Under the pieces are notes generated by a model. It was given only the letters and a program-made list of their open reading frames with translations. It had not been told where the DNA came from and did not search any database. DNA of 64,000 nucleotides, from the NCBI GenBank assembly GCA_027488845.1, contig JAIYBC010000060.1, positions 186,001 through 250,000 of the forward strand, written 5' to 3'. This DNA comes from Verrucomicrobiales bacterium. Lineage in GTDB: Bacteria > Verrucomicrobiota > Verrucomicrobiia > Limisphaerales > UBA9464. Below are positions 19,557 through 34,505 of the stretch, piece after piece. Position 1 is the first letter of the stretch; each line of letters opens with the position of its first letter. Position numbers and translations under genes: made by a program.

Positions 19557-22025
19557 ATGAACTACCATCTCCATCATCAGGGACAGGATCTCGGCGTCCA
19601 TCCGGAGGAGGTCCTCCGCCAACGCCGAGACGTCGGCGAACTCCCCGGTGACGCCTTGGTCTGGCGCCCGGGCATGCCCTCATGGAGGCCCTTGGACGAA
19701 GCCCTGCCTCGCGTCGAGGCACCTCCCTCGTTCACCCCGGCCACGCCGCCGCCGCTCGCGGACAGCGCGGCTTCATCGCAGACCAGCCACGCCAACGCGA
19801 TTCCCTCCCGCACCCAGGGTCCGGCGTTCTGGATCACCGTGGCGGTCGCCATCGTGGTGGGGTTCATGGGAATGGTCTTCCTCGTCGTCGGCGCGGTGGC
19901 CACCAGCAAGGTCGGCCGCAACGCCAACGTCGGGGAGTCCGACCCGGCCGTGGCGGGTGAAGACGCTTCGGAGGACGAGGACGCCGAGGCCGTGGCCGCG
20001 CGGCCGATCGTGGTCTCCACCAACTCGGAGACCTTCCTGGACTTCGAACGTCGCACGGAGGACTTCCGTCGGCGTCACTACCTCGAGGCCTACCGCCGCC
20101 ACGCCGACCGCAAGGCGCCGGGATTCCAGGCCGGGGAGGATCTCATCGAGTCCTGGCTCCGCAGCAGTTTTGGAACCCGGACCTCGGAGGACGACTCGGC
20201 TTTCCTTGCGAAGACCGACCTCATCGCCCGCGACGCCTCGGTCCGGGATCCCATCGTCCTGCTGGTCACCGCGGTCCGCTGTCCGGAGCAGCATGAACGC
20301 ATCCGGCGATATCAGCGCGCGGTCGACGCCTTCCCGGGCACGGATTACGGACCGTATCCCAGGTTCTTCGCGGTGACGGACCTCGCCAAGGTCCTTCCCG
20401 CCGAGGATTCCCGGATCGAACCCCTGCTCGAGAAGGCGGTGGGGCTCTTCGGGGAAGTGCTCGGGCCGGACGGCATCCGGCCGGACGAACAGGAGCAACT
20501 CGGCGAGGTGCTGCTCCACGGTTGGGGCGACCGTCTTTTCCGTCGTCATGGAGAGCGCCTGAAGGACAAGGCCGCCGAGGCCGGCGACCCGTTCGCCTGG
20601 CTGGCCTTCCTGTTGGAGGGCGAATACCACATCCAGCAGGCGTGGAAGGCGCGGGGCGGCGGCTTCGCCGGCTCCGTGACCCGGAAGGGCTGGGAGGGCT
20701 TCAACGAACACTCGAAGCGGGCGGAGACCGCGTTGGAGGCCGCGTGGGACCTGAACCCGGAACGCCCCCAGGCCGCGGCGCGGATGGTGTACGTGAGCCT
20801 CGGACTCCACGGCATCGGCCGGATGCGCCTGTGGTTCGACCGGGCGCTGGAGGCGCGCATCGACTACCACGACGCGTGGACCCAGCTCCGTTGGGGCCTG
20901 CGTCCGCGTTGGCACGGAAGCGTGGACGCCCTGCTCACGTTGGGCCGCACGGCGGTCGCCACGGGACGCTTCGACACCGATGTGCCGCGGAAGCTCTTCG
21001 ACTGCATCGAGGACGCCGAGTCGGAGGCGAATCCGGCACCGGGACGACGCCTGTTGACCCGCGCGGACATCTGGGACGACCTGGAGAAGATGTACCGCGG
21101 CTACATCGCGAACCGGAAGGGCACCCCGGAGGAACGCGGCTGGCGCTCGGTCTTCGCGGTCATCGCGCGGCTGTCCGACCGGATGTCGGTGGCCCGGGAA
21201 CAGCTGGAGGCCGTGGACTGGAACCCGGAACCGACCCGGCTCCTGGGTTGGGACAAGGACCTTTCGCTGATGGTGCCCGAGGTCGCGGCGCTCACCGGAA
21301 CCGCAGGACGCGACGTCGCCCGCGCCGAACAGGAACGGAAGCGTGGGCATCCCGAGGAGGCGGTCGAACGCTTCACGGAGATCGCGGCACGCACCGACGT
21401 CGACGACCGGACCCGCGGGTACGCGCGGATCCTCGCGCGGATCGTGGCCTCGGAAGGACGGCTGGCCCGCGGCGAATGGATTCCCCTGATGCCGCAGACG
21501 GCCGACGACCCGGAGTGGGTCACCGCCCGCGGCGAGATCCGGAAGTGCGAACCCGGGATCCTCGAGGTGAAGTCCGGTCCGACCGGGCACCTGATCCACA
21601 GCCGGGTCCAGGTCGGGACGAACTTCGCCGTGCGGGGCGAGTGGGAATCCGTGAGCAGTTCGAACGGGGACATCCAGGCCGGGATCGTCTTCGGCATGAC
21701 GGACCTGAGCCGTTCCCGCTTCCTCGGTTTCCGGATGAAGAACACCCGTGACGAGGACCAGATCGCCTCGGTGGGCTACGGTTGGGGGCGGAGCCAGATC
21801 AAGGGACCGGCGCTGGTGTACACCGGGAAGACCAACCGCTTCGAACTCGAGTTCCGGAACGGCCTCGCGACGGTGAAGGTGAACGACATGATCATCTTCC
21901 ACGACAACCCGGTGCCGCGGTTGCCGCCGTTCGAGGCCGGCGAGTTCCGGCTCGGGATCGGCGCCTTCAACGACATCAACGAGACGGTGATCCGCTACCG
22001 CAACGTCGAGGTCCGCCGGCTTTGA
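19557..22025 (+). CDS. GYF_2/DUF4339 domain N-terminus, TM segment, large uncharacterised region, concanavalin-like C-terminus
   Basis: MNYHLHHQGQDLGVHPEEVLRQRRDVGELPGDALVWRPGMPSW; hydrophobic FWITVAVAIVVGFMGMVFLVVGAV; C-terminal RFELEFRNGLATVKVNDMIIFHD. Confidence 0.7.
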   Translation: MNYHLHHQGQDLGVHPEEVLRQRRDVGELPGDALVWRPGMPSWRPLDEALPRVEAPPSFTPATPPPLADSAASSQTSHANAIPSRTQGPAFWITVAVAIVVGFMGMVFLVVGAVATSKVGRNANVGESDPAVAGEDASEDEDAEAVAARPIVVSTNSETFLDFERRTEDFRRRHYLEAYRRHADRKAPGFQAGEDLIESWLRSSFGTRTSEDDSAFLAKTDLIARDASVRDPIVLLVTAVRCPEQHERIRRYQRAVDAFPGTDYGPYPRFFAVTDLAKVLPAEDSRIEPLLEKAVGLFGEVLGPDGIRPDEQEQLGEVLLHGWGDRLFRRHGERLKDKAAEAGDPFAWLAFLLEGEYHIQQAWKARGGGFAGSVTRKGWEGFNEHSKRAETALEAAWDLNPERPQAAARMVYVSLGLHGIGRMRLWFDRALEARIDYHDAWTQLRWGLRPRWHGSVDALLTLGRTAVATGRFDTDVPRKLFDCIEDAESEANPAPGRRLLTRADIWDDLEKMYRGYIANRKGTPEERGWRSVFAVIARLSDRMSVAREQLEAVDWNPEPTRLLGWDKDLSLMVPEVAALTGTAGRDVARAEQERKRGHPEEAVERFTEIAARTDVDDRTRGYARILARIVASEGRLARGEWIPLMPQTADDPEWVTARGEIRKCEPGILEVKSGPTGHLIHSRVQVGTNFAVRGEWESVSSSNGDIQAGIVFGMTDLSRSRFLGFRMKNTRDEDQIASVGYGWGRSQIKGPALVYTGKTNRFELEFRNGLATVKVNDMIIFHDNPVPRLPPFEAGEFRLGIGAFNDINETVIRYRNVEVRRL

Positions 22026-22084
22026 GCGGAAGGCAGCTGGCGCCCACCGTTGTCGGGTACGGGGAAGCCGGCTACGCTGACTTC

Positions 22085-22333
22085 ATGGGCTTCGACTACC
22101 ACTCCGCCTTCGAACGCCGCACCGACGTGTGCGGCGGGGCGCTGGTGCTGAAGGGCACTCGTGTGCCGGTTCGCACCGTATTGGCCAGCCTGGCCGAAGG
22201 CGCCTCCGAGGCGGAGCTACGGGCCGACTTCCCGACGGTCTCTGCCGACGGTCTCCGCGCAGTGATCGCCTTCGCCGCCACCTCAGCCTCGGAAGACCTG
22301 CCGCTGCCACCGGTGCCCGCCGTTGTGGCGTGA
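22085..22333 (+). CDS. DUF433 antitoxin-like protein
   Basis: GGALVLKGTRVPVRTVLASLAEGASEAELRADFPTVSADGLRAVIAFAA. Confidence 0.8.
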   Translation: MGFDYHSAFERRTDVCGGALVLKGTRVPVRTVLASLAEGASEAELRADFPTVSADGLRAVIAFAATSASEDLPLPPVPAVVA

Positions 22334-22695
22334 AGATCAAGGTCGACGAGAACCTTCCCGAGTCCCTCGTGGAGGAATTGTCCCGCTTCGGCCACGATGT
22401 GGACAGCGTCCGCGAGGAAGGCCTCACTGGCCGGAGTGACGACGAAGTATGGAAGGGTGCCCAAATGGCGAATCGGTTCTTCGTCACCCAGGATCTGGAC
22501 TTCTCCGATCCGGACCGTTTCTCGCCAGGCTCCCATCATGGAATCCTCTTGGTGCGACTGCCCTACGCGGGACGTTCCGCCTTGGTCCAGAGGATCCAAG
22601 CTGCCTTCGAAACCGAGGGAGCGGAGTCTTGGAACGGCTGTTTCGTGGTCCTGAGTGATCACAAGATCCGGGTGTTGCGGGCCAAGGGAACCTGA
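22330..22695 (+). CDS. DUF5615 PIN-like toxin
   Basis: GTG start overlapping DUF433 stop (GTGA); VKIKVDENLPESLVEELSRFGHDVDSVREEGL...FFVTQDLDFSD. Confidence 0.8.
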   Translation: MKIKVDENLPESLVEELSRFGHDVDSVREEGLTGRSDDEVWKGAQMANRFFVTQDLDFSDPDRFSPGSHHGILLVRLPYAGRSALVQRIQAAFETEGAESWNGCFVVLSDHKIRVLRAKGT

Positions 22696-23158: not shown

Positions 23159-23782
23159 ATGGCTCACGAACTCGCCCCCCTGCCCTACGCGAAGGACGCC
23201 CTCGAACCCCACATCGACGCCCTCACGATGGAGATCCACCACGGCCGCCACCACAAGGCCTACGTGGACAACCTCAACAAGGCCATCGCCGGCACCCCGC
23301 TCGAAGGGAAGTCCATCGAGGCGCTGATCGCCGACATCCCGGGCGTGCCCGAGAACATCCGCGGACCGGTCCGCAACAACGGCGGCGGCCATTGGAACCA
23401 CACCTTCTTCTGGAACATCCTCGCCCCCGGCAAAGGTGGCACGCCCACCGGCGATCTCGCCGCGGCCATCAACGCCGCGTTCGGCTCGTTCGCCGAATTC
23501 CAGGCCAAGTTCGAGGCGGCCGGCGTCGGCCGGTTCGGATCCGGATGGGCCTGGCTCGTGGTCAACGGCGGCAAGCTGGAGGTCGTCTCCACCGCCAACC
23601 AGGACAACCCGCTCATGGGCAAGGCCGTCTCCGGCACCGAAGGCAAGCCCCTGCTCGGCGTCGACGTCTGGGAGCACGCCTACTACCTCAAGTACCAGAA
23701 CCTCCGCGCCGGCTACCTGAAGGCGATCTGGAACCTGGTCGACTGGGACAAGGTCGCCGCGCTCTACGCCGCCGCGAAGTAA
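23159..23782 (+). CDS. superoxide dismutase (Fe/Mn family)
   Basis: [55 protein letters not shown]. Confidence 0.95.
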
Positions 23783-23800
23783 CCCTTCCGCCCCGACTCG

Positions 23801-23830
23801 AAAGGCCGCGCCCCCAAGGCGCGGCCTTTT
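23801..23830 (+). terminator. Rho-independent terminator downstream of sod
   Basis: AAAGGCCGCGCC-cccaa-GGCGCGGCCTTTT. Confidence 0.9.
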
Positions 23831-23892
23831 CCATTCCGAAACCCCGTTTCCTCCTTCACCCCTTCCGCTGACCTGCTCCCCTGTCACTTGTT

Positions 23893-24099
23893 TGGTGAAA
23901 GGTTGGAGGGTTGAAAGGTTGGAGGGTTGAAAGGTTGAAAGGTTGGAGGGTTGAAAGGTTGAAAGGTTGAAAGGTTGAAAGGTTGAATCGTTGAATCGTT
24001 GAATCGTTGAGTCATTGCGTCCTTCAGTCCGTTCAACCCCTTTAACCCTTTAACCCTTTAACCCTTTAACCCTTTAACCATTCAGCCCTTCAACCCTTC
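23893..24099. repeat. octamer tandem array, GGTTGAAA-type drifting into CCCTTTAA-type (palindromic overall)
   Basis: ggttggag ggttgaaa ... ggttgaat cgttgaat cgttgagt cattgcgt ccttcagt ccgttcaa c ccctttaa x6 ccattcag cccttcaa cccttcat. Confidence 0.9.
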
Positions 24100-25069
24100 A
24101 TCGCCTCACCCCCCTCCCCCAGCGGTCGGCGAGGATGCCGCAGACGATGAGCTGGAGCGGGTGGTAGAGCAGGATCGGCAGCAGGATCAGGCCGAGACCG
24201 GGATGGGTTCCGAACAGGATCTTCGCCATCGGCACACCTGAGGCGAGGGTCTTCTGCGGGGCGCAGAAGGCGGCGGCGATGCGGTCGGCGGGATCGAGCC
24301 GGAGCAGTCGGGAAAGGGCCTCCACCGCGGCCATGGCGATCACGAAGACGAGCAGCACCCCGGCGGCCGCGAGCAGGGTGACGCCGGCGCCGTGCTGGGA
24401 CCACAGGCGGGACTTCACCGAGTTGCAGAACGCGGCGAAGACGATGAACAGGATGATGCCGCTGGCGATGTTCCCGAGCGGCTTCTTGCGGGCGTCGGCA
24501 AACTTCGCGAACGGCAGGCGGAGGAGCTGTCCGACGGCGAGCGGCAGGAGGAGAAGCAGGACGATCTCGAGGATGACCGGTCCGAGCGGTTGTCGGCTGC
24601 CGCCCTTCTCCATGAGCCAGGTGATCCAGAGGGGCGTGATGAACACGCCGAGGACGTTGGAAAGCACCGCGTTGAAGATGGCGCCGACCGTGTTGCCGCC
24701 GGCGAGACCGGTGAGCACGACAGAGGTGGAGACGGTGGACGGCAGGACGCAAAGATAGAGGAAGCCGAGGGCGAGGTCGGGCGGAAGGAAGCGTCCGAGG
24801 GCCTTGTCGAGGAGGATGCCGATCAGCGGGAACAGGCCGAACGTGAAGGACTGCACCAGCAGGTGCAGGCGCCATTGGGAGACGCCCTTGCGCAGGGCGG
24901 CCGAGGGCAGGGTGAGGCCCTGGAGGAGGAAGATCAGTGCGACCCCGGCCTTGGTGGTGACCTGGGATTGGAGCCATCCGCCGGAGGCGCCGGCCTCGGG
25001 GACAAGGAAGGCGAGGACGACGGCGAGAGGCAGGGACAGGACGAACCAGTTGCGTGCGAGGAAGGCCAT
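24098..25069 (-). CDS. bile acid:sodium symporter-like (SBF/BASS) transporter
   Basis: MAFLARNWFVLSLPLAVVLAFLVPEAG...FLLQGLTLPSAAL...VLPSTVSTSVVLTGLAGGN...APQKTLASGVPMAKILFG. Confidence 0.85.
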   Translation of the reverse strand: MAFLARNWFVLSLPLAVVLAFLVPEAGASGGWLQSQVTTKAGVALIFLLQGLTLPSAALRKGVSQWRLHLLVQSFTFGLFPLIGILLDKALGRFLPPDLALGFLYLCVLPSTVSTSVVLTGLAGGNTVGAIFNAVLSNVLGVFITPLWITWLMEKGGSRQPLGPVILEIVLLLLLPLAVGQLLRLPFAKFADARKKPLGNIASGIILFIVFAAFCNSVKSRLWSQHGAGVTLLAAAGVLLVFVIAMAAVEALSRLLRLDPADRIAAAFCAPQKTLASGVPMAKILFGTHPGLGLILLPILLYHPLQLIVCGILADRWGRGVRR

Positions 25070-29499: not shown

Positions 29500-29551
29500 T
29501 GGTCGAGTTTGGGAAATCCGGACTTCGAGGCAAGGAGGCAGGCGGGGGGGG

Positions 29552-29700
29552 TGAAGCGTTGAAAGGTTGAAAGGTTGAAGCGTTGAAGCGTTGAAGCGGT
29601 GGATAGGGCGGCAAGGAAGCTAGCCGCGGCAGTGACCCGCAACGGACAACGGACAACGAACAGCAATCTCCGTGTCCTCCGTGCCTCAGTGGCCAATCCG
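29552..29700 (+). repeat. dispersed intergenic repeat, copy B
   Basis: Octamer stub GTTGAAAG then CCGCAACGGACAACGGACAACGAACAGCAATCTCCGTGTCCTCCGTGCCTCAGTGGCCAATCC (29637-29699). Confidence 0.85.
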
Positions 29701-34368: not shown

Positions 34369-34505
34369 GTTGAAAGGTTGAAAGGTTGAAAGGTTGAAGG
34401 GCTGAAGCGGTGAATGGGGCGGCGATGAACCGCCGCAGCGATCCGCAACGGACAACGGACAACGAACAGCAATCTCCGTGTCCTCCGTGCCTCTGTGGCC
34501 AATCC
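34369..34505 (+). repeat. dispersed intergenic repeat, copy C
   Basis: Octamer stub plus 63-bp core at 34443-34505, 62/63 identical to copy B by eye. Confidence 0.85.

Follow-up and report, generated by a model that had tools for sequence, protein, structure and literature searches.

The octamer tract that separates a superoxide dismutase gene from a convergent transporter gene in a Verrucomicrobiales genome belongs to a family of octamer repeats that is dispersed among the intergenic regions, and it is built of two oppositely oriented arms with a joining core rather than of one gradually changing array. The tract was examined within a window of 64,000 nucleotides (the whole stretch of DNA analyzed, to which coordinates without a locus name refer) from a genome, here called G000, of 5.39 Mb in 69 contigs. 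The explanation that we favor, with a probability of about 60%, is a slippage-driven repeat family that is confined to gene edges, where it is tolerated rather than used.

A preliminary description of the window had reported an octamer array at this place, in 8-bp phase with one slip, and had read it as drifting stepwise to its near reverse complement. The periodicity was borne out: the printed units of 23893-24100 (208 bp) comprise 26 octamers in 8-bp phase with a single 1-nt slip, and the lag-8 identity of the tract is 0.81, the best of 2000 mononucleotide shuffles reaching 0.35. Tandem Repeats Finder (TRF), the period analysis that had been proposed, also found the phase to hold, in the form of two period-8 arrays (23896-24003, 13.5 copies; 24038-24098, 7.6 copies). 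The stepwise drift did not survive; instead, arms of the types (GGTTGAAA/GGTTGGAG)n and (CCCTTTAA)n stand in opposite orientation around a 26-bp core, which recurs at a second locus. The features of the locus, and two further arrays of the family in the window, are as follows.

23159-23782, + strand: superoxide dismutase gene (sod; Mn/Fe type), left neighbor (gene call; NCBIfam NF008177, E 5e-77, below cut-off)
23801-23830, + strand: likely intrinsic terminator of sod, a GC-rich hairpin followed by four T (read in the sequence)
23868-23892, + strand: 25 bp, CTGACCTGCTCCCCTGTCACTTGTT, putative relic of the end of an IS481-like transposon (match to the outer end of the element in G013, a related species)
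23893-24004, + strand: left arm, 14 octamers, GGTTGAAA / GGTTGGAG, then GGTTGAAT / CGTTGAAT
24005-24030, + strand: core A, CGTTGAGTCATTGCGTCCTTCAGTCC, 26 bp, itself in octamer phase
24031-24100, - strand: right arm, chiefly CCCTTTAA (on the - strand GGGTTAAA, a G3N5 quadruplex motif)
24098-25069, - strand: SBF-type transporter gene, right neighbor, convergent with sod (gene call; family name from the preliminary description)
29549-29605, + strand: 7-unit array of the family, the second in the window, ahead of a start codon
34368-34407, + strand: 5-unit array of the family, the third in the window, ahead of a start codon

As had been stated, the array ends in the stop codon of the transporter gene, which the outermost right-arm unit contains (24098-24100), and it is non-coding. 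In the left arm, the G strand carries stop codons in all frames and the opposite strand carries none. Core A was found again at L103:151 and, as an altered copy, at L207:483. The transporter had no match in the NCBIfam search; its relatives, 36-44% identical, occur in many bacteria. Elsewhere in the window, two short overlapping open reading frames (22022-22695, + strand) resemble, by eye, a toxin-antitoxin pair (DUF433-like and DUF5615/PIN-like).

The genome-wide search that the preliminary description had suggested revealed a sizeable family. About 57 places in G000 resemble the window tract, and near-exact two-unit matches number 212, versus 1 for a reversed control pattern. In 1.18 Mb of G000 we found 60 runs in about 47 clusters, with the GG end mostly at gene edges; this sequence consists of fetched regions around the listed array loci with their flanks and was selected largely for arrays, so that it gives no estimate of density, but the array-rich choice should not bias counts of orientation. 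All but three of the runs (57/60) lie outside called genes. An element has either a single arm or two opposed ones, built from about 4-20 units of the GGTTGAAA type, and many loci are one-armed. Most of the cores between arms are unrelated to each other: core A occurs at two loci, core B at five and as a partial copy, and core C at one, plus two in a relative. At five or more unrelated loci, all of them at contig ends (L104, L106, L107, L109, L112, L110), the copies of core B (CGGAGATAGTTCTGGACTTTTCGCCTG...) between the arms are nearly identical, and this near-identity suggests that arrays may recently have been copied from one to another.

The arrays are oriented with respect to genes. In 32 of 40 runs in G000 the GG end is the one nearer its own gene (p 2e-4, a value that is somewhat optimistic, given some dependence among arrays of the same family). 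The typical position of this end is no more than about 20 nt from a stop codon, or else 25-80 bp ahead of a start codon, although individual distances may be off given that the genes were called with a simple self-made frame model. A stop codon lies inside the run in 10 of the 33 stop-side cases. Stop codons as the cause of the orientation were considered and rejected: they cannot explain the arrays upstream of starts, or the stop-free heptamer of Xanthomonas. The other short tandem repeats of G000 do not follow the gene-edge orientation (36:41), so the G-strand rule is not one that short repeats obey in general. Among such sequences, period-7 repeats (GGCATCA, GCCTGAC, CAACGGA) and a CTCCGTGTCCTCCGTG motif are common in the intergenic regions of G000, also without an orientation rule (for example L110:2767-2867, L128:13100-13235, and window 29640-29700 and 34446-34500).

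Where two arms are present, their order is fixed: GGTTGAAA precedes TTTCAACC at 13 of 13 two-arm loci, and the reverse order was not seen at any G000 locus with both orientations. Because each arm points away from the gene next to it, a two-arm locus forms an inverted repeat with a short core in the middle. Both regularities recur in G144, a genome of another class, in which the gene-edge rule is followed by 14 of 14 runs and the pair order by six of six pairs, with unrelated cores. The remaining families sampled, which yielded few loci and in which gene calling was poorly trained, again had a constant pair order (5/5) but no clear gene-edge rule (9 near vs. 10 far).

Does the inverted arrangement serve as a hairpin? 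That either strand could fold into a long hairpin had been anticipated, and was confirmed: as RNA, the + strand of the tract folds end to end with -104.5 kcal/mol (z -11.2) and the - strand with -83.2 (z -7.7); as DNA, the + strand reaches -45 (z -6.7). The great stability of the end-to-end fold would suit a selected RNA hairpin, a terminator or a REP-like stabilizer of mRNA ends, in which the paired arms would stop RNA polymerase or 3' exonucleases, here on the sod and transporter transcripts. The concentration of arrays within 20 nt of stop codons agrees with such a role, as does the lack of any other listed terminator-like site on the transporter side. Yet the arms do not appear to be kept complementary. 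In an arm-swap permutation over the 13 two-arm loci, a locus's own arms paired no better than swapped ones (outer 32 nt, p 0.92; inner 32 nt, p 1.0), which lends no support to a selected hairpin; several of these loci have core B in common and three span assembly breaks, and in so small a sample weak selection on pairing could escape detection. Moreover, many loci are one-armed, arrays also occur upstream of starts, no T run follows the array, and sod has a terminator-like hairpin of its own ahead of it, in keeping with the earlier placement of the sod terminator. A scan of 23700-24300 for a stem followed by a U tract listed no site; the consensus used requires five T, and the sod hairpin, with four, was unlisted. 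We therefore consider a selected hairpin unlikely as the explanation of the family, while a terminator or mRNA-end role is possible at single loci, including the transporter side of the window locus. The proposed bidirectional transcription block fared likewise: such a block may still operate, but the arms show no sign of kept complementarity.

Rfam 15 returned nothing above the gathering score for the tract; only eukaryotic miRNA and snoRNA models appeared, far below cut-off, as is to be expected of a long hairpin. A three-tetrad quadruplex motif is present in 20 of 60 runs, compared with 0.8% of control segments; at the window locus, the left arm has none and the right arm has one.

Comparison between species speaks to how the arrays change. 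The window locus is present in a close relative, a Loclat metagenome-assembled genome (L009; G005 carries the identical sequence) with the same core A and the same relic, a shorter right arm, and four left-arm units where G000 has 14. The DNA flanking the arrays has a mean aligned identity to G000 of 95% in G013, 92% in G012 and 90% in G005. In 24 other orthologous comparisons the array has kept its place and its flanks, and the number of units is different in 23 of them; nearly all of the compared genomes are drafts, and several contigs end inside arrays, so some of these unit numbers are lower bounds. Such contig ends could mean that some lengths are truncated or collapsed, and assembly error had been named as a possible refutation of the array. 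This is contradicted by the orthologous arrays that three other species, each assembled separately, have at the corresponding positions, and we regard an assembly artifact as very improbable.

At one locus the core itself has changed direction: core GGGGATGCGGGAACGCAGGCATCGGCGCCGATTTCCCGC of G000 L134:9999-10131 is, with the exception of one base, the reverse complement of that at G005 L221:4908-5038, and hence was inverted between the arms. With this inversion, and with insertions of an IS481-like element into units (below), the suggestion that the array is prone to recombination holds; that it might be a replication hotspot or a nucleoid-protein site gained no support, evidence being found neither way. 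According to the explanation that we prefer, unit number would change mainly through strand slippage, the core inversion would arise by recombination between arms, and the hairpin would be a by-product. The arrays would be tolerated at gene edges rather than needed there, presumably surviving only where genes stay undamaged.

The fixed arm order, the recurrence of cores A and B at unrelated loci, and the dispersal of elements confined to spacers are also features that a two-arm, MITE-like mobile element would display, its octamer arrays serving as inverted termini for a transposase acting in trans and later shortening or lengthening. This we judge improbable. Most cores are unrelated, and the 24 orthologous comparisons revealed neither a target duplication nor an empty site, nearly all loci being full in both species. 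Y1 transposases, the domain of RAYTs, show no enrichment in carriers: matches number 0-2 in the four carriers of the genus and 1-11 in five non-carriers, and a RAYT was accordingly discarded as a candidate. Nor does the IS481-like element fit the part, as arrays are its insertion sites and not its cargo, and most carriers lack it; with its insertion into arrays, and with its intact form limited to G013, it was also rejected as the source of the octamers.

That element is intact only in G013 (L213:3755-5266; transposase at L213:3817-5205, NF033577, E 2e-13, well below the model cut-off), and G000 has one broken relative with stops (L238, L308). Octamer-type sequence was present at every junction of the G013 element that was read (L213; L237-L252). 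The 7-mers flanking it (CTTCAAC, GTTGAAG/A, TTTTAAC, GATGAAG/A), read by eye and partly from junctions on separate contigs, suggest that the element enters the unit at a single point and duplicates 7 bp there (GTTGAAG/CTTCAAC and variants). The flanks of L213 match two different G000 loci, and some G013 copies appear to have recombined or to have been misassembled. The 25-bp relic beside the window tract fits an old end of an IS481-like element.

The family is distributed unevenly. Within a genus of 19 species, a burst is confined to G000, G013, G012 and G005 (68-212 matches), the other species having 0-7, and a comparison of accC groups the four carriers (92-97% to G012; next 87-88%). A three-unit pattern occurs in 14 of 388 genomes of the phylum, scattered over several families; the richest of the 388 is G144, with 282 matches, while three relatives from its family have none. 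The motif GTCAYTGCGTC occurs in array cores of two classes (L274:9940 and L277:10096 and 10111 in G144; window 24011 and L103 in G000; L207 in G013), and all six occurrences in the fetched sequence of these three genomes lie within octamer arrays. Small arrays of the related octamers TTGAATGG and TTGAAGGG were seen in G040 and G042 (same order) and in G023 and G029 (same family). None of the papers searched contains GGTTGAAAGGTTGAAAGG, and the literature search returned nothing relevant on such repeats in Verrucomicrobia.

Neutral slippage alone gives no account of the same octamer in distant families or of an arm order that is never reversed. Both observations, the latter as a strict G-outward order at two-arm loci, would agree with sequence-specific addition of octamers, for example RNA-templated at broken ends, that leaves the G strand directed outward from the gene edge on either side; the synthesis of tandem-repeat DNA by bacterial reverse transcriptases has been reported (DRT10; PMC12632851). 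However, RVT_1 had no match in 9 of 12 carrier genomes, which disqualified a resident reverse transcriptase as the repeat maker, and runs of variant units resemble slippage of mutated copies. Such sequence-specific addition seems to us quite improbable. A broader reading, and a long shot, is that in several lineages of Verrucomicrobiota distant from one another the GGTTGAAA octamers are produced or propagated by some sequence-specific activity that directs the G strand outward from gene edges; if true, it would explain the recurrent 8-mer and the opposed-arm layout while close relatives have none.

The closest known kind of repeat is that of the Xanthomonas and Nostoc heptamers, GGGAATC and GGGGA(C/T)T, which are intergenic, G-rich, single or in inverted pairs, conserved in place, variable in length, generally not associated with mobile elements, and of unknown function (PMC4692102). 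Under the Xanthomonas-type strand rule, the G strand near a gene is the coding strand downstream of it and the non-coding strand upstream (PMC4692102). Like GGGAATC, the octamers are intergenic, single or in inverted pairs, kept in place and variable in length, and the strand rule for both gene ends is followed in G000 (32/40) and G144 (14/14). Unlike the heptamers, the unit is 8 bp (GGTTGAAA and variants), the phylum is Verrucomicrobiota, cores lie between arms, an insertion sequence targets the units, and a three-tetrad quadruplex motif is limited to 20 of the 60 runs. The STRR heptanucleotide repeats of cyanobacteria are short tandem units dispersed in the spacers of certain lineages. The octamers share all of these traits and differ in unit length and sequence; a Calothrix example of STRR is mentioned in PMC4692102. 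Octamer arrays are extragenic, often lie downstream of genes and can form hairpins. The same is true of REP sequences and REPINs, but REPs are single short palindromes, whereas the octamer arms are tandem arrays, without the enrichment of Y1 transposases in carriers. With MITEs the elements have in common that they are short, non-coding and dispersed, with inverted ends; they differ in their variable arm length, mostly unrelated cores, and the lack of a visible target duplication or empty site.

For work on Verrucomicrobiota, the arrays matter in that they break short-read assemblies of these genomes, and the repeat-targeting IS481-like element is worth a separate study. Species about 5-10% apart allow the turnover of units, the inversion of cores, the targeting by the IS and the orientation rule all to be traced. 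The gene-edge repeats of Xanthomonas and Nostoc lacked a cause; the same layout, with another unit and in a recent burst with control relatives, makes the origin of such repeats testable.
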